This document shows positions 1,870 through 38,808 of a stretch of DNA of 40,370 nucleotides, piece by piece; positions within the stretch are counted from its first letter, which is position 1; each line of letters begins with the position of its first letter. Under the pieces are notes generated by a model that was given only the letters and a program-made list of their open reading frames with translations, ran no database searches and was not told the DNA's origin. The DNA comes from Alphaproteobacteria bacterium (GTDB lineage: Bacteria; Pseudomonadota; Alphaproteobacteria; Bin95), in assembly GCA_022827685.1 (NCBI GenBank), contig JAJEIH010000129.1, positions 1 to 40,370 on the forward strand. Direction: 5' to 3'. The translations under genes and the position numbers were made by a program.

Positions 1870-3110
1870 CCGCCGAGATCGTCACCTTTGGCTGCCGCCT
1901 CAATGCCTGGGAGTCGGAGGCGATGCGCCGGCTGACGGCCGGGGCCGGGCTTTCGGACGCCCTGGTCTTCAACACCTGCGCGGTGACGGCGGAGGCCGAG
2001 CGGCAGGCGCGGCAGGCGATCCGCAAGGCCCGGCGCGAACGGCCCGGCGCGCAGATCGTTGTTACCGGCTGCGCCGCGCAGATTGCGCCCGAACGCTGGC
2101 TCGCGATGGAGGAGGTGGACCGGGTCGTCGGCAATGCCGAGAAGCTGACCGCCGAAGCCTGGAAGCCGGACGCGCCGCCGGCGCTGGTGAACGACATCAT
2201 GAGCGTGCGGGAAACCGCTCCGCATCTTCTGGACGGCTTCGGCGGCCGGGCGCGGGCCTTCGTGCAGGTGCAGCAGGGCTGCGACCATCGCTGCACCTTC
2301 TGCATCATCCCCTATGGACGGGGACCCGGCCGCAGCGTGCCGCTCGGCGAGATCGCGGCGCAGACCCGCCGGCTGCTGGAAGCGGGCGCGGCCGAGATCG
2401 TGTTGACCGGCGTGGACATCGCGTCCTGGGGCTCCGACCTGCCGGGTGCCCCCCGGTTGGGGCAGGCGGTCCGGCGCTTGCTGGCGCAGGTCCCGGAGCT
2501 CCGGCGGCTCAGGCTCTCCTCCGTCGATCCCGCCGCCATCGACGATGACCTCCTCCGGCTGCTGGCGGAGGAGCCGCGGCTGATGCCGCATCTGCACCTC
2601 TCGGCGCAGGCGGGCGACGACATGGTGCTGAAGCGGATGAAACGCCGGCACTTGGCGGCCGATGTCGTCTCGCTTTGCGAACGGCTGAAGGCGCTGCGTC
2701 CCGAAATCGCCTTCGGGGCGGACCTGATCGCGGGCTTCCCGACCGAGACCGAGACGATGTTCGCCCGGAGCCTCGAACTGGTGGAAGCCTGTCCGCTCAC
2801 CTGGCTGCATGTCTTCCCCTATTCGCCGCGCCGGGGCACGCCGGCGGCGCGAATGCCGCAAGTGCCGGCGCCGTTGCGCAAGGAACGCGCCCGCCGGCTC
2901 AGAGACACGGGCGAGGCGGCTGCCGGGCGCTTCCTCGAGAGCCGGGTCGGCTGCATGGAGCGCGTCGCCGTCGAGCGCGAAGGCGTCGGACGCACCGAGC
3001 AGTTCGCGCCCGCCGCGCTTCAGGGGGCGGCGCGCCCGGGTTCGGTCCGGAACGCGCGTGTCCGCGGGGTCGAGGCGGGACGGCTGGTCGCGGAAGTGCT
3101 CGCGGCGTGA
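1866..3110 (+). CDS. mtaB: tRNA t6A37 methylthiotransferase MtaB
   Basis: Radical-SAM methylthiotransferase that converts t6A to ms2t6A at position 37 of ANN-decoding tRNAs. The 414-aa protein has the N-terminal methylthiotransferase domain with three iron-sulfur cysteines (Cys10, Cys38, Cys69) and a radical-SAM domain with CxxxCxxC at Cys139, Cys143 and Cys146 followed by IIPYGRGPGRS. A TRAM-like C-terminus follows from about residue 355. The short N-terminus fits MtaB rather than MiaB. Its GTG start overlaps the dapF stop (GTGA), and its own stop overlaps the ftsY GTG in the same way, so all three genes are probably co-translated. Confidence 0.93.
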   Translation: MTAEIVTFGCRLNAWESEAMRRLTAGAGLSDALVFNTCAVTAEAERQARQAIRKARRERPGAQIVVTGCAAQIAPERWLAMEEVDRVVGNAEKLTAEAWKPDAPPALVNDIMSVRETAPHLLDGFGGRARAFVQVQQGCDHRCTFCIIPYGRGPGRSVPLGEIAAQTRRLLEAGAAEIVLTGVDIASWGSDLPGAPRLGQAVRRLLAQVPELRRLRLSSVDPAAIDDDLLRLLAEEPRLMPHLHLSAQAGDDMVLKRMKRRHLAADVVSLCERLKALRPEIAFGADLIAGFPTETETMFARSLELVEACPLTWLHVFPYSPRRGTPAARMPQVPAPLRKERARRLRDTGEAAAGRFLESRVGCMERVAVEREGVGRTEQFAPAALQGAARPGSVRNARVRGVEAGRLVAEVLAA

Positions 3111-4021
3111 ACTGGCTTCAGCGGCTGAGGCAGGGGCTGTCGCGATCCTCCGACCGCCTCGCCGACGGGATTGCGGGCATCTTCTACCGGCGGCGGCTGG
3201 ACGAGGAGGCGCTGGAGGAGCTGGAAGACCTGCTCATCATGGCGGACCTCGGGCCGGCCACAGCCGCGCGGCTCGCCTCCGGCCTTGCGCGCGCGCGCTT
3301 CGGCACGGAGGTCTCCGGCGAGGAGGTGCGCGGGGTGCTGGCCGACGAGATCGCCGGCCTGCTGGAGCCGGTGGCCCGCCCGCTCGTCGCCGATCCGGCG
3401 CGCAAGCCCCATGTCATCCTGGTGGTGGGCGTGAACGGCACCGGCAAGACGACGACCATCGGCAAGCTCGCCCACGCCTTCCGCGCCGAAGGCAAGACCG
3501 TGCTGCTGGCGGCGGGCGACACCTTCCGCGCGGCGGCGGTGGAGCAATTGCAGCTATGGGGGGAGCGGGTCGGTGCGCCGGTCGTCGCGAGGCCGACGGG
3601 GGCGGACGCCGCAGGGCTGGTCTTCGACGCCCACGGGCAGGCGATCCGGGACGGAACCGACATCCTGCTGATCGACACGGCCGGGCGGCTCCACAACAAG
3701 GCCAACCTGATGGACGAGCTTTCCAAGATCACCCGCGTGATCGCCAAGCAGGATGGGGACGCGCCGCACGACACGGTGCTGACGCTCGACGCCACCACCG
3801 GGCAGAACGCGCTGCAACAGGTCCGCGCCTTCCGCGACATGGCCGAGGTGACGGGCCTGATCGTGACCAAGCTCGACGGCTCGGCCAGGGGCGGCGTGGT
3901 CGTGGCGCTGGCCGAGAGTGTCGGCCTGCCGGTCCACGCCGTCGGCGTCGGCGAAGGCGAGGAAGACCTCCGCCCCTTCGCCCCCCGGGATTTCGCCCGC
4001 AGCCTGATGGGGCTGGAGTGA
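3107..4021 (+). CDS. ftsY: Signal recognition particle receptor FtsY
   Basis: SRP-family GTPase that docks ribosome-nascent-chain/SRP complexes at the inner membrane and Sec translocon. The 304-aa product has a short N-terminal amphipathic segment (FtsY of many bacteria carries a long acidic A domain, absent here), the helical N domain (about 30-95) and the G domain. Visible motifs are the P-loop GVNGTGKT (108-115), DTFRAAA (138-144), DTAGR (190-194) and TKLDG (254-258). GTG 3107 was chosen for the four-base overlap with mtaB and because MNWLQRLRQGL is a typical alphaproteobacterial FtsY start; the longer open frame upstream lies inside mtaB. Last gene of the operon. Confidence 0.95.
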   Translation: MNWLQRLRQGLSRSSDRLADGIAGIFYRRRLDEEALEELEDLLIMADLGPATAARLASGLARARFGTEVSGEEVRGVLADEIAGLLEPVARPLVADPARKPHVILVVGVNGTGKTTTIGKLAHAFRAEGKTVLLAAGDTFRAAAVEQLQLWGERVGAPVVARPTGADAAGLVFDAHGQAIRDGTDILLIDTAGRLHNKANLMDELSKITRVIAKQDGDAPHDTVLTLDATTGQNALQQVRAFRDMAEVTGLIVTKLDGSARGGVVVALAESVGLPVHAVGVGEGEEDLRPFAPRDFARSLMGLE

Positions 4022-4035
4022 GCAGGGCATGGTGA

Positions 4036-4098
4036 ATGGGTGCGACAGCCCGCTTCGTCGGGACAGCGAGGCAAGTCGAGATCGTCGACTACCATTGA
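4036..4098 (+). pseudogene. Vestigial HigB toxin C-terminus
   Basis: Directly upstream of the antitoxin gene, a 20-codon stretch ends in VEIVDYH and TGA at 4096-4098. HigB/RelE-type toxins paired with HigA usually end in a very similar V-x-x-x-DYH. An in-frame TGA at 4033-4035 precedes it and no further toxin sequence is visible before ftsY ends. I infer that most of higB was deleted and only its tail, which overlaps the higA ribosome-binding region, survives. Short, so moderate confidence. Confidence 0.5.
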
Positions 4099-4112
4099 AG
4101 GAGGTAAGCGAT

Positions 4113-4463
4113 ATGACCGTCCGGCGCGAAGACCTGGAGCGGGGCGCGGTGCAGTTTTCGGACGTCGTCGCCGGCGGCCGGCTGGCGCCGGTGCATCCCG
4201 GAGAAGTCCTGCGCGATGAGTTCCTGGCGCCGATGGACCTCAGCGTTTATGCGCTTGCCAAAGCGCTGAAGGTTTCAAGGGCGCGTCTAAACGATCTGGT
4301 GCGCGGCCGGCGGGCCGTTACAACCGATACTGCGCTGCGGCTGGGGCGCTATTTCGGTACCACGCCGGATTTCTGGATCAATCTTCAGGTCCGATACGAA
4401 TTGGATGCCTCCGATGCCCTTCGCGCGCGGATCGAAAGAGAGATCGCGCCCCGTGCAGCGTAA
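4113..4463 (+). CDS. higA: HigA-family antitoxin (helix-turn-helix), orphan
   Basis: 116-aa VapI/HigA-type antitoxin: a DNA-binding protein that normally neutralises a HigB mRNA interferase and represses its own operon. The family pattern is clear: HPGEVLRDEFL, then the helix-turn-helix (about residues 45-80, with SVYALAKALKVSRARLNDLV), then TDTALRLGRYFGTTPDFWINLQ. ATG 4113 is preceded by a strong AAGGAGGT (4097-4104); the frame opens further upstream but without homology. The extra N-terminal 25 residues before HPGEV are longer than in many HigA proteins. The toxin gene expected just upstream is reduced to a tail, so this is probably a solitary antitoxin that may act as a repressor or protect against related toxins. 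Confidence 0.88.
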   Translation: MTVRREDLERGAVQFSDVVAGGRLAPVHPGEVLRDEFLAPMDLSVYALAKALKVSRARLNDLVRGRRAVTTDTALRLGRYFGTTPDFWINLQVRYELDASDALRARIEREIAPRAA

Positions 4464-29224: not shown

Positions 29225-29597
29225 TCAGGCCGGCCGGAGCACGAAGTCGAAGCGGCCGCGCCACGCGCCAGCGGCGGTCCGGCCGAGGCGCAGCAGCAGC
29301 TCGTCCCTAAAGATGGAATCGCGGGCGTTAGCAGCCTTGAGATCGGGAAAGTAGACCTGCGTGGTGAGCGGGCGCGTCCCCTCGCCCTGCAGCTTCACAT
29401 GGATATGCGGCGTGCGGCCCGTATAGCGGCCTGGCCGGATCGTCAGGAAGCGGAATGCGCCGGCCGCGTCGGTAAACTGGTGGCCGCGATAGCGGAAGCC
29501 CTGGTTGTCGTAACGCCCGCGCTCGTCGCTGTGCCATATGTCGATGACGGCGCCGGATACGGGCCGGCAGTCCGGCGTGAGCAGGAGGCCTTCGAAG
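29225..29597 (-). pseudogene. Intradiol ring-cleavage dioxygenase, C-terminal fragment (gene split by the 29598-31803 element)
   Basis: The minus-strand frame ending at TGA 29227-29225 encodes FEGLLLTPDCRPVSGAVIDI, then WHSDERGRYDNQGFRYRG, then PGRYTGRTPHIHVKL, then GRFDFVLRPA. This is the catalytic part of a protocatechuate/catechol-type intradiol dioxygenase, with the two tyrosine and two histidine iron ligands (GRY, PGRY, HIH) intact. The frame is cut at 29597 by the left end of the insertion element. The N-terminal part lies at 31804-32086. Joining the two across one 8-bp target duplication restores an uninterrupted reading frame, so the gene was intact before the insertion. Confidence 0.9.
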
Positions 29598-29609
29598 GGG
29601 GATTATATC
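29590..29609. repeat. Left target duplication and left terminal repeat of the IS1595-like element
   Basis: CTTCGAAG (29590-29597) is the target duplication, itself palindromic, and recurs exactly at 31804-31811. The element begins with GGGGATTATATC (29598-29609), which matches the complement of the right end (GGCAATTATATC) at 10 of 12 positions. Confidence 0.85.
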
Positions 29610-29614
29610 TGATA

Positions 29615-29749
29615 TTAGGCATCTGCCTGTTCCTCGGGCGGCGGCTCTTTCGGCTTCTTCGGCTTGCGCAGTGCGAGGGCGAGCTTCTCCGGCGTGGCGC
29701 CTTTGAAGCGCGGATCGACCGGGATCGGCGGGGGTTTCTCGTCCGTCAT
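29615..29749 (-). CDS. 44-aa proline/lysine-rich element-encoded protein
   Basis: Small protein too short for most gene finders: MTDEKPPPIPVDPRFKGATP followed by a Lys/Pro/Glu-rich tail. Its ATG (29749) overlaps the stop of the 94-aa gene (ATGA), like every other junction in the element, and its TAA lies only 17 bp from the element end. I do not recognise a named family; the P-R-F-K-G-A-T-P-E motif is similar to short proteins I associate with phage-like loci, without assigned function. Coding status is supported by the coupling and by the tight fit in the element. Confidence 0.6.
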   Translation of the reverse strand: MTDEKPPPIPVDPRFKGATPEKLALALRKPKKPKEPPPEEQADA

Positions 29750-30030
29750 GCGTCCAGCCTTTCATCGATGGATTTCACCCGGCGGCGCGCTGCCGCCAGC
29801 TCGCTGACCATGCTGCGCAGGTCTGCCGCTGATGGATATTCTGCCGTTTCGAATTCGCGGGTTTGCGCGTTCTCTTCTCCCGACGCCCCGCATCGGGCAA
29901 TGCCGGAGGCGGTCTGAAGCATTTTCTCGGCGGCCTCCAGCCGCTCCCGCAGGCAGGCTATCGTCAAGCGCAGGGCGCGCCGCTCCCGCACCATGCCGGC
30001 CAGCACGGCGTCCTGTTCTTCCTCGGTCAT
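29746..30030 (-). CDS. 94-aa coiled-coil element-encoded protein, paralogue of the 91-aa protein
   Basis: Hypothetical protein starting MTEEEQDAVLAGMVRERRAL with a long Arg/Glu/Leu-rich helix (residues 1-45), a polar central loop and a second helix (about 68-94), as expected of a helical hairpin. It resembles the product of the preceding gene in length, the MT-x-EEE start, the segment CLRERL (CLRNRL in the other) and the two-helix layout, so the pair probably arose by duplication. Both ends overlap neighbouring genes by ATGA. No catalytic residues are apparent; an accessory role in transposition, regulation or host defence is open. Confidence 0.65.
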   Translation of the reverse strand: MTEEEQDAVLAGMVRERRALRLTIACLRERLEAAEKMLQTASGIARCGASGEENAQTREFETAEYPSAADLRSMVSELAAARRRVKSIDERLDA

Positions 30031-30302
30031 GAGCGCGCTCCGGTATCGGTGAGACCGGCGAGCATTGCCTTCAACTCTTTCCGGCGGGTGACAGCTTCCC
30101 GGACCTCGGCGAATAGCCCGGAGAACTCTTCCGGCACGTCTTCCGGGTTCGAGGCTGGATGGTCATCGAGCAGCAGAACAGCGTCCGATACCTGCCGGGA
30201 CAAGCGGGACAGTCGGTTCCGCAGACAGATGCAGTGCCGGTCGATTTCCTGAAGCTCGACGACCATGCGGCCGATCTCGGTGAATTCCTCTTCCTTGGTC
30301 AT
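30027..30302 (-). CDS. 91-aa coiled-coil element-encoded protein
   Basis: Hypothetical protein beginning MTKEEEFTEIGRMVVELQEI with two helical segments (about 1-48 and 62-85) joined by an acidic loop. It shares with the next gene the start, the CLRxRL motif and the overall layout. Its ATG (30302) overlaps the transposase stop by four bases. The open frame continues upstream inside the transposase gene, but the ATGA overlap and the paralogue's start fix the ATG. Two cysteines (CIC in the first helix) could bind metal or form a disulfide; function unknown. Confidence 0.65.
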   Translation of the reverse strand: MTKEEEFTEIGRMVVELQEIDRHCICLRNRLSRLSRQVSDAVLLLDDHPASNPEDVPEEFSGLFAEVREAVTRRKELKAMLAGLTDTGARS

Positions 30303-31276
30303 GAGCGCGCTCCCGACGGCAGTCCGTTGTCCGCGATAAGGTCCCGATAGCGGAGCCGCCGCCCCGACAGGGCCAGCACCATCAGCGTCATCTGGGCCAG
30401 CGTGTCCGCGTTGCGGATGTTGTGTTTGCCCGCGAACTCCTGGACGTAGCGGTTCAGGTGCTTCGGGCTGATCTTGTGGAAGGTCCCCTTGTGGGCGCGC
30501 TTGAACATCGACCACAGGGCTTCCATGCCCTGAATATGGACTTCGCCCCGGACATACTCGCTGGCCGAGTGATTGACGGTCTCGTGGTCGAAATCGCGGC
30601 CCAGCCCGACATAGGCCGCTGCCTCGTCGGTGTAGAGCGTCGCGCCGGGTTCGGCATGGTCCCGGACGAAGCCTTGCAGCGTCGCCGCGTCGGTCCGCTC
30701 GATGGCGCGGGCCGCGACCTGGCCGGTGTCCCGGTCCTTGACACCGACGACCGGCGTCATGTCCACGGCGCCGCGGCCTTCCAGCTCCTTGCGCTTCTTC
30801 CAAGGCTTGTTGGCACGGCGGCCGCCTACATAGGTCTCGTCGGCTTCGACCGGCCCGCCGAGCAGCGAGCCGTCGCCGTTCTCCGCCCACGCTTCCCGGA
30901 GGCGGTGCAGCATGAACCATGCCGCCTTCTGCCCGATTTTCAGGTCCCGGTGCAGCTTCATGCTGGAGACCGATTTCAGGCTCGTCAGGCAGAGGTAGAT
31001 GCCGATGGCCCACTTCCGCAGCGGGAGGTTCGAGCCCTCCATCACCGTGCCGGTCTTGACGCTGAAATACTTCCGGCAGTCCGAGCACCAGTGCGGCATC
31101 GGCTTGCCGGAGGCGACGGGGCGAACGCGCGCCCCGCCACAGTGCCCGCAGCGCACCCCGTCAGGCCAGTAGATGGCCTCGAACCACTCCCGCGCCGCGT
31201 CCTCGGTCGGGAACAGGTCCATCAACTCGACGATGGAGATACCCGCCCGGAACGCCTTGCCCGGCGCTTTCGTCAT
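30299..31276 (-). CDS. IS1595-family transposase
   Basis: 325-aa DDE transposase. The N-terminal zinc ribbon has cysteines 43, 46, 64 and 67 (RCGHCGG, HWCSDCRKYF). The catalytic domain contains EADETYVGG (Asp146), LYTDEAAAY (Asp217) and HIQGMEALWSMFKRAHKGTFHKIS. IS1595 transposases usually have H-x-N in this last motif; here Gln249 replaces the asparagine, while Glu252 and Lys259 are kept. The C-terminus ends RDLIADNGLPSGARS, common in this group. The gene is intact, and its ATG overlaps the preceding GIY-YIG-like gene. Activity is supported by the fresh-looking insertion, though the substitution raises doubt. Confidence 0.92.
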   Translation of the reverse strand: MTKAPGKAFRAGISIVELMDLFPTEDAAREWFEAIYWPDGVRCGHCGGARVRPVASGKPMPHWCSDCRKYFSVKTGTVMEGSNLPLRKWAIGIYLCLTSLKSVSSMKLHRDLKIGQKAAWFMLHRLREAWAENGDGSLLGGPVEADETYVGGRRANKPWKKRKELEGRGAVDMTPVVGVKDRDTGQVAARAIERTDAATLQGFVRDHAEPGATLYTDEAAAYVGLGRDFDHETVNHSASEYVRGEVHIQGMEALWSMFKRAHKGTFHKISPKHLNRYVQEFAGKHNIRNADTLAQMTLMVLALSGRRLRYRDLIADNGLPSGARS

Positions 31277-31704
31277 TCCTCGTCCTCCTCATCCTGATCC
31301 GTCTCGGCGGCAGCTTCGACAGAGGCTCGCAACTCCTCCCAGCTTGGAAGGTCAGGGGCCTTGATGCGGGCGAAGAACAGGTCGCCTTGCCGGACCAGCT
31401 CGTTGATGTCTTCGACCTCCCATTGCTCGCGGTCGCCGACCCGGGGAGCCGGGAAGGTCATCCACTCGCTGGCGGGAGCCTCGAAGATGGTCCAGGACGG
31501 CCACGCCTTGATGATCTCGGCGCTCGCCATCCATGTCCGGGCGGACTTGAGCCGGTCTTTCAGGTAGTGGGCCGGATCGTGCTCAAGGAACCGCTTGGGG
31601 TCCTTCACGGGGCCAACGCCCGCCCATCCGATTTTGACAAGGTTCAGGTCCGGGTGGAGCTTGATCGCGTAGATGTAGCCGGGCTGCCTCTGTGCTGGCG
31701 GCAT
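31273..31704 (-). CDS. GIY-YIG/T5orf172-like protein, first gene of the element
   Basis: 143-aa protein. Near the N-terminus GYIYAIKLHPDLNLVKIGWA matches the paired beta strands (G-Y-I-Y ... K-I-G) of the GIY-YIG nuclease superfamily, T5orf172/MUG113 branch, followed by RLKSART where the catalytic Arg usually lies. The C-terminus is an acidic tail. I chose ATG 31704 because GGAGG lies five bases upstream and homology begins at once; the frame extends to TTG 31785, but that TTG coincides with a consensus -35 TTGACA. The terminal ATGA overlaps the transposase. A nuclease could process DNA ends or act on host DNA; its active-site glutamate is not obvious, so activity is uncertain. Confidence 0.6.
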   Translation of the reverse strand: MPPAQRQPGYIYAIKLHPDLNLVKIGWAGVGPVKDPKRFLEHDPAHYLKDRLKSARTWMASAEIIKAWPSWTIFEAPASEWMTFPAPRVGDREQWEVEDINELVRQGDLFFARIKAPDLPSWEELRASVEAAAETDQDEEDEE

Positions 31705-31755
31705 GACATCCTCCATCTGATCGCGGCGGATTTCAGCCTCTCGGCGCTTCTCGTT

Positions 31756-31785
31756 ATCCTGAAGCTCCTGCTCGGCCGCTGTCAA
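31756..31785 (-). promoter_or_regulatory. Putative promoter of the element operon
   Basis: On the minus strand TTGACA (31785-31780) is followed after 18 bp by CAGGAT (31761-31756). The -35 is perfect and the -10 weak. It begins 18 bp inside the element end, and would produce a transcript starting before ATG 31704. Confidence 0.45.
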
Positions 31786-31791
31786 GGATGG

Positions 31792-31811
31792 GATATAATT
31801 GCCCTTCGAAG
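31792..31811. repeat. Right terminal repeat and right target duplication of the IS1595-like element
   Basis: GATATAATTGCC (31792-31803) is the inverted copy of the left end with two mismatches. CTTCGAAG (31804-31811) repeats the left flank exactly. Confidence 0.85.
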
Positions 31812-32086
31812 ATCAGCAAATCTCCGTGTGCGCCGGACTCTCGAAGATCGACGCGGCGCGGCGTTGACCGCGTATAGAACGGCCCCGCCGTCTGCGGGCG
31901 TGTACCGGGGGTGCAATTCAGAAGCGGTACAAGCCCGAACCCGCGATCCGCAACCGCGCCGGCAGGGACATATCCCAGAAGCGTCGAACGCGCAGACGCC
32001 AGCAGCGGCATCGCCGCCGCGCCCGCCAGCCCGGTCAGCACCGACCGCCTCATCGCCCTGTGCAACATTATGCGAGGGTAGCCCAT
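31804..32086 (-). pseudogene. Intradiol ring-cleavage dioxygenase, N-terminal fragment
   Basis: Minus-strand frame from ATG 32086 (or ATG 32053, giving MRRSVLTGLAGAAAMPLLAS) to the element end. The N-terminus looks like a secretion signal with paired arginines; then CTPGTRPQTAGPFYTR, the conserved T-x-GPFY segment that opens intradiol dioxygenases, and GAHGDLLIFEG, where the insertion interrupts it. The rest is at 29225-29597. A possible exported or membrane-anchored catechol/protocatechuate-type dioxygenase before disruption. It follows the liv operon but is separated from it by a strong terminator. Confidence 0.85.
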
Positions 32087-38183: not shown

Positions 38184-38385
38184 TTCACTTCAACTAAGAA
38201 AACATGCTGAAAGAGGCCATGACCTGACCGACCGGCGGCGGCTGGCGCCGCGCTTGCGCAACACCCGATCCGAAGGCGTGGAAGCCGGCGGGTGGGGGAA
38301 TCTCCGACGCACAGGAGAGGTGCGGCCGGGCGGCGCGTTGTGGCGGCCGGTTTCGGCCGGAATCGGAAGAAGAGGAGGCGCGGCG

Positions 38386-38808
38386 ATGGACGGATCGACG
38401 GACGGATTGCCGGAGCGGCGGCGGGGCCGGGCGGTGGGCGAGGACCTGCGGGCCGCGGCGGTGGCGGCCGTGCTGCGCGAGGGCATGAGCATCCGCGCGG
38501 CGGCGCGGCGGTTCGCCCTGCCGCGGAGCAATGTCGGCAATTGGGTGCAGCGCTATCGCGAGCGCGGCCATGTGCGGCCCGACAGGAAAGGCGGCAAACC
38601 CTCGCGGATCGAGCCGCATCGCGAGCGCATCCTGCGCATCCTGGCGGCGCGGCCGGGGCTTTCCATGTACGGGCTCTGCGACGCGCTCGCCGCCGAGGGG
38701 CTGGTCTTCCACCCGACGACGGTGCAGCGCTTCCTGAGGCGCCACCGCCTGGACCGCGAAACCCGCCTCGCCCGCCGACAGCCGCGCAAACGGTGGACCC
38801 GGCGTTAG
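38386..38808 (+). CDS. IS630-type transposase first ORF (helix-turn-helix part), orphan
   Basis: 140-aa protein matching the N-terminal half of IS630-family transposases. GRAVGEDLRAAAVAAVLREG and SIRAAARRFALPRSNVGNWV form the helix-turn-helix; GKPSRIEPHRERILRILAAR then GLSMYGLCDALAAEG form the winged-helix-like region; VQRFLRRHRLDRETRLARR is the end of the typical first ORF. GAGGAGG lies eight bases before ATG 38386. The catalytic DDE second ORF that should follow is absent: only 25 bp separate the stop from an unrelated repeat. So it is a truncated insertion sequence, or a DNA-binding remnant that could still bind IS630 ends. Confidence 0.75.
   Translation: MDGSTDGLPERRRGRAVGEDLRAAAVAAVLREGMSIRAAARRFALPRSNVGNWVQRYRERGHVRPDRKGGKPSRIEPHRERILRILAARPGLSMYGLCDALAAEGLVFHPTTVQRFLRRHRLDRETRLARRQPRKRWTRR

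Follow-up and report, generated by a model that had tools for sequence, protein, structure and literature searches.

What is an insertion sequence doing with four genes besides its transposase, packed so tightly that each gene overlaps the next? The question is raised by a 2206-bp element in a stretch of 40,370 nt from an Alphaproteobacteria bacterium (positions 1–40,370 of contig JAJEIH010000129.1, assembly GCA_022827685.1), the whole of which is referred to here as the window. The element lies at 29598–31803 on the minus strand. The analyses described below showed that it is a member of the IS1595 family, and we consider it probable that it is a mobile unit from a clade of that family whose members transport genes for modifying or cutting DNA.

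The element has terminal inverted repeats, GGGGATTATATC at the left (29598–29609, plus strand) and GGCAATTATATC at the right (31792–31803, minus strand), that are identical at 10 of 12 terminal positions, and it is flanked by two perfect copies of the 8-bp sequence CTTCGAAG (29590–29597 and 31804–31811). The flanks form an interrupted intradiol dioxygenase gene on the minus strand, its 5' part (31812–32086) being recognized by homology to congeners and a gap-free DNA alignment and its 3' part (29225–29597) by a match to PF00775 (E 8.8e-16). The dioxygenase reading frame was restored once the element was removed together with one of the two CTTCGAAG copies, the gene was uninterrupted in six congeneric genomes (protein identity 76–88%), and the DNA of the congeners aligned with the junction without a gap. 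Together, these data indicated a real insertion into a host gene. Similar ends and a perfect 8-bp duplication were also found in 27 of 31 related elements, which is beyond chance. An earlier note on this DNA had described an IS1595-like element with 12-bp imperfect ends and an 8-bp duplication, and the repeats, the duplication and the empty site in the congeners all bore this out.

The transposase (30299–31276, minus strand, 325 amino acids (aa)) matched the NCBIfam model NF033547 (E 1e-55, 188.9 bits against a cut-off of 75) and the Pfam domain PF12762, DDE_Tnp_IS1595 (E 2.7e-41, above cut-off), and has an N-terminal zinc ribbon (PF12760, E 3.1e-7, 30.7 bits against a cut-off of 25.4). The element thus has the transposase domain, the zinc ribbon, the 8-bp duplication, the inverted repeats and the single transposase gene by which IS1595 members are recognized, and its remaining four genes are passengers. 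The genome also contains five transposase paralogues with 55–60% protein identity, and the best plasmid-borne relative was 42% identical.

Relatives of the element were gathered from one scan of GTDB genome contigs, which yielded 47 loci, and from 385 searched genomes of the class, 20 of which gave strong transposase matches; our own numbers for loci (L), genomes (G) and contigs (C) are used below. The use of similar ends and duplications to delimit elements gave the 31 distinct related elements, of 1.9–4.4 kb. Many of them carry DNA methyltransferase or restriction genes where the window element has its own cargo. Pfam, run on selected cargo proteins, identified an N6_N4 methylase with a C-terminal T5orf172 domain in L012 (E 1e-9), an N6_N4 methylase fused to an HNH domain in L021 (E 2.4e-8) and a GIY-YIG domain (E 4.5e-8) beside a C5-type methylase in L101, with E 2.7e-45 for the N6_N4 methylase part of the fusion cargo. 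Type II enzymes were also present: BglII endonuclease in L105 (E 1.7e-32), CfrBI endonuclease in L029 (E 2.7e-21), NotI endonuclease in L113 (E 9.2e-40) and EcoRI methylase in L020 (E 8.4e-138). The genome of the window itself has a C5 methylase in L125 (E 2.1e-44) and an N6_N4 methylase in L127, and an HNH and a GIY-YIG domain were identified in L119 and L121, respectively. In the genome of the window, copies with a methylase lie on contigs C23, C46 and C165. L020 and L125 are transposase-plus-cargo loci and were not among the elements delimited at both ends. A type I-like methylase in L118, seen by eye only, had no match over the 260 of 628 aa tested and was not counted.

That such cargo moves was evident from G310, a complete, single-contig genome with four 100%-identical copies (L105–L108) of a 2.7-kb methylase and BglII element in different flanks, which indicated that this unit had moved recently. 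The left flank of L106 and the right flank of L107 share AATCCATA, so that the flanks of two of the copies look swapped, which suggests recombination between element copies. Cargo is also exchanged between elements: L012 and L013 have near-identical transposases, yet the C-terminal domain of the methylase is T5orf172 in L012 and HNH, as seen by eye, in L013. Separately, we observed a protein of 133–147 aa (WVKARxxCT...FN.L) directly after the transposase in L021, L099, L110, L111 and L116; in all of these except L021 it is joined to the transposase by ATGA, and the L110 copy had no Pfam match.

The passenger common to the clade is p44 (29615–29749, minus strand), a 44-aa protein with the motif ATPEKLA.AL..P. 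Its family core, ATPE-LA-AL--P, often follows YQPSKAELEE, and the motif is conserved across bacterial classes. The p44 protein was detected in 24 of the 31 delimited elements, usually as the last gene of the cargo operon. With a leave-one-out model, 22 elements had E values of 0.05 or less (Z=100,000), the window being at 6e-4, although close relatives were still in the model and the test is not fully independent. In the 385 genomes of the class, p44 was found in 14, the transposase in 20 and both in 12 (Fisher p = 6e-16, a guide only, since the genomes are related). No p44 was found in 298 other genomes of the phylum or in the plasmid collection, and no fitting family was found in Pfam, NCBIfam or PHROGs. 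The ratio of non-synonymous to synonymous substitution rates (dN/dS) for p44 pairs was 0.19–0.55. In same-strand elements p44 usually stops 5–64 nt from the far end, and in the convergent elements (L009, L012–L015, L018, L039 and L053) it lies on the opposite strand, last in the cargo operon and adjoining the transposase. The idea that all four accessory genes always travel with the transposase was not supported; p44 alone is near-universal in the clade, unlike p94, p91 and the GIY-YIG gene described below.

Some p44 copies adjoin an IS1595-type end without a transposase. One of these, L191 (G136:C76, oriented 2870–4261), is a non-autonomous derivative: a 1.39-kb transposase-less element with IS1595-type ends, a perfect duplication (AAAATTTT) and p44 as its last open reading frame (ORF). 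In the genome of the window, L196 (contig C86, 378–1269) has a 235-aa protein that by eye resembles a restriction specificity subunit; p44 and then an IS1595-type end come after it, and no transposase was seen. A methylase-like protein of L113 (element nt 1026–1964), whose N-terminus, GVEPEALARALLRS, resembles p44, is possibly a p44-methylase fusion.

The first gene of the window operon (31273–31704, minus strand) encodes a protein of 143 aa that likely has a GIY-YIG fold and is predicted to be a T5orf172-type nuclease. The AlphaFold2 model of this protein had a predicted local distance difference test (pLDDT) score of 81 and a predicted template modelling score of 0.71; the models of the other four proteins, at 57–63, were much less confident. 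Matches in a viral-structure library were named T5orf172/GIY-YIG (E 7e-4 to 1e-2), and the best VIA match was Slx1, a GIY-YIG nuclease, at Z 5.3, the next row being unrelated at 3.9. No relatives of the gene were found in 287 related genomes, plasmids, phages, viral contigs or PDB sequences. Its sole relative, in L129 of another genome of the phylum, is near an N6_N4 methylase gene and matches T5orf172 at E 0.018, short of cut-off. In a five-row alignment Y39, K51, G53 and R78 were invariant, and E102 was matched with a Glu of L129 by eye only. The protein resembles the GIY-YIG/T5orf172 nucleases (PF01541, PF10544) in its predicted fold and may share with them the residues Y39, K51–G53, R78 and E102, and the T5orf172-methylase fusion of L012 is a further likeness; it differs from them in lying below Pfam detection, and its nuclease activity is a prediction. 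An origin of the gene by separation from a methylase-GIY fusion was set aside, as the domains align only weakly (20–24% identity).

The two remaining passengers, p91 (30027–30302) and p94 (29746–30030), both on the minus strand, are small predicted coiled-coil-like proteins that are related to each other and belong to the same superfamily. Both have homologues in L122, an element of the same genus (E 2.7e-13 and dN/dS 0.33 for p91; E 3.9e-29 and dN/dS 0.29 for p94), which also has a p44 homologue, lacks a GIY-YIG gene and has an in-frame stop in its transposase. The transposase tree places L122 with L101 (support 98/93), away from the window. As the transposase of L122 stands apart from that of the window and yet is accompanied by homologues of p94 and p91, these two genes have been passed from one element to another. 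One such protein, p94-like or p91-like, is also present in L110, L097 and L115, in each case without a GIY-YIG gene. A 201-aa ORF of L122 was considered as a PD-(D/E)xK nuclease (DLEL...HIEVK by eye) and left unassigned, as it had no Pfam match, a pLDDT of 40.5 in a single-sequence model and E 0.59 in a PDB sequence search.

The earlier note had also reported that the five genes are joined by ATGA overlaps and packed to within 17 bp of the left end of the element. Both points were confirmed by checking the sequence: the four overlaps (31273–31276, 30299–30302, 30027–30030 and 29746–29749) are all on the minus strand, and the p44 stop codon is 17 bp short of the end. The gene content likewise stood, and only the start of the first gene at TTG 31785, which would give 170 aa, is probably wrong. 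Judging from the sequence, ATG 31704 is the likelier start, since it is preceded by GGAGG at a 5-nt spacing and since TTG 31785 is part of a TTGACA (31780–31785, minus strand) that recurs in related ends and may be an inward-facing -35 box of the operon. Among the related elements, TTGAC within 34 nt of the end was a feature of 16 of 32 ends on the transposase side and of 13 of 32 on the far side; in some of them a good -10 box stands at a distance of 16–17 nt. A promoter scan of the window found no full sigma-70 site. In L012, L013, L015 and L053, inward-facing TTGACA boxes are present at both ends, so that promoters in the repeats could drive convergent transcription of the transposase and the cargo operon. 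An overlap between the transposase stop and the next gene was seen in 19 of 50 related elements examined, roughly a third, though not all of these are independent or certain. These recurrent overlaps, and the dN/dS values below 1 for relatives of p94, p91 and p44, supported the earlier view that the accessory genes are real and are made together with the transposase. A search of the region against Rfam found no match. Elsewhere in the window, transposase-type helix-turn-helix domains (HTH_28, HTH_Tnp_1) were identified in an ORF at 38230–38808 (plus strand), which seems to be a fragment of a different insertion sequence.

Based on these observations, we suggest how such a unit could work. Transcription of the operon would begin at the right end and run into the element, with translation coupled from each stop to the next start, and the transposase would move the whole unit by a DDE reaction, leaving 8-bp duplications. 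The GIY-YIG protein may cleave DNA, to a restriction-like or competitor-directed benefit of the host or the element, and p94 and p91 may work as a pair, perhaps partnering the cargo enzyme or keeping it in check. The retention of p44 through changes of cargo would make it an element-specific accessory, most likely with a role in transposition or in expression of the cargo rather than one tied to any single enzyme. In the light of the cargo difference between L012 and L013, the GIY-YIG gene of the window can be seen as a variable enzyme beside a constant transposase and p44. More tentatively, and with odds that we place somewhat below even, the clade, found mainly in uncultured bacteria, may be specialized in spreading methylation, restriction and nuclease genes and may depend on p44, a hallmark protein of 45–70 aa, for transposition or cargo expression, with p44 also serving transposase-less derivatives and the window element being the GIY-YIG version.

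Several results weigh against a cargo-moving unit of this kind. The window element is single-copy at 100% identity in its own genome, so that this copy gives no sign of having moved recently. Its putative nuclease had no significant match when the model was compared with the PDB by Foldseek and no Pfam match at E<=5, and its only relative, in L129, is weak (E about 1e-5). There is no methylase gene within 29598–31803 and the element is therefore not a type II restriction-modification (R-M) system; to act in sequence-specific restriction it would need some other protection. In addition, 7 of the 31 elements had no clear p44, three of the positives (L111, L021 and L023) fail on leaving out their own sequence or score weakly, and several p44 matches have no recognizable transposase or end nearby. 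Weak matches near E 0.01 may be chance.

The lack of a methylase raises the alternative of an addiction module, in which a toxic GIY-YIG nuclease is restrained by p94 and p91 (or p44) and loss of the element harms the cell. A nuclease-like gene sharing an operon with two small paired proteins would suit such a module, as would the co-production expected of a compact, coupled operon. However, p94 and p91 in L122, and the p94- or p91-like proteins of L110, L097 and L115, all occur without a GIY-YIG gene, and none of the PADLOC-DB models matched the GIY-YIG protein, p91, p94 or p44 at E<=0.01; we regard an addiction module as unlikely. We give about the same low weight to the proposal that the GIY-YIG and small proteins are not cargo and belong to the transposition machinery, acting in target choice, resolution of intermediates or regulation. 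The near-universal presence of p44, usually at the element end, and the recurrent stop-start coupling of cargo to transposase are in its favor, but the GIY-YIG gene is missing from almost all relatives, including the four identical, recently dispersed copies in G310, and cargo changes while transposases stay close. At most, p44 fits such a role.

The accessory genes could instead be captured host genes or chance ORFs without a selected function, as the scarcity of GIY-YIG relatives and the highly variable cargo might indicate. We consider this improbable, and for p44, p94 and p91 it is already disfavored by the dN/dS of their relatives (0.19–0.55), by the p44 motif being conserved across bacterial classes and by the association of p44 with the transposase (p = 6e-16). 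Least probable of all, to the point that we give it hardly any weight, is that what is detected as p44 is an end signal in the DNA itself, such as a transposase-binding or regulatory site, and is open as an ORF by chance. In favor of it, p44 lies 5–64 nt away from the far end in the majority of same-strand elements; in the convergent elements, however, it is found next to the transposase end on the opposite strand and not at the element end, and its conservation is at the amino-acid level.

Comparison with known systems placed the element as follows. The IS1595 family was described by Siguier, Gagnevin and Chandler (2009; as cited in PMC3129680, PMC8101967 and PMC11891212), and its passenger-carrying members are termed "transporter IS" (tIS) in PMC3129680 and PMC11891212, an example being ISNha5 with a regulator (PMC11891212). 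The window element shares with the family the DDE_Tnp_IS1595 domain, the zinc ribbon, the 8-bp duplications and the short inverted repeats. What distinguishes the present set is that many of its elements have methylases or restriction-type nucleases as passengers, along with a common p44. Mobile type II R-M units with imperfect inverted repeats and short target duplications have been reported (Furuta, Abe and Kobayashi 2010, as given in PMC3874152). The related elements resemble them in holding a methylase with BglII, NotI or CfrBI genes, and differ in having an IS1595 transposase inside the unit; the window element, lacking a methylase, does not amount to an R-M system. The IS1380 family includes tIS with a methyltransferase (PMC11891212), likewise insertion sequences with a passenger of this kind, whose transposase belongs to a different family. 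Passenger-carrying IS1595 elements and repeat-bounded R-M units are, then, already known, and it is the pattern of R-M and nuclease cargo with p44 that appears to be new: no description of an IS1595 clade with R-M cargo and a common tiny protein was found in the open-licence literature, ISfinder lying outside the search.

In that literature IS1595 passengers have so far been named as single examples, whereas extra genes were present in most elements of the clade described here, and many of these encode DNA-modifying or -cutting enzymes. Type II restriction genes are recognizable among them, also in copies that are identical and dispersed, and most elements retain p44. This offers a testable route for the spread of R-M genes and orphan methylases within and between genomes. 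Enriched defence features have been reported for marine sponge microbiomes, for which a high transposase prevalence is also cited (PMC5099237); elements of the kind seen in the window could connect the two directly. The p44 family provides a sequence handle for finding such elements, including the transposase-less ones.

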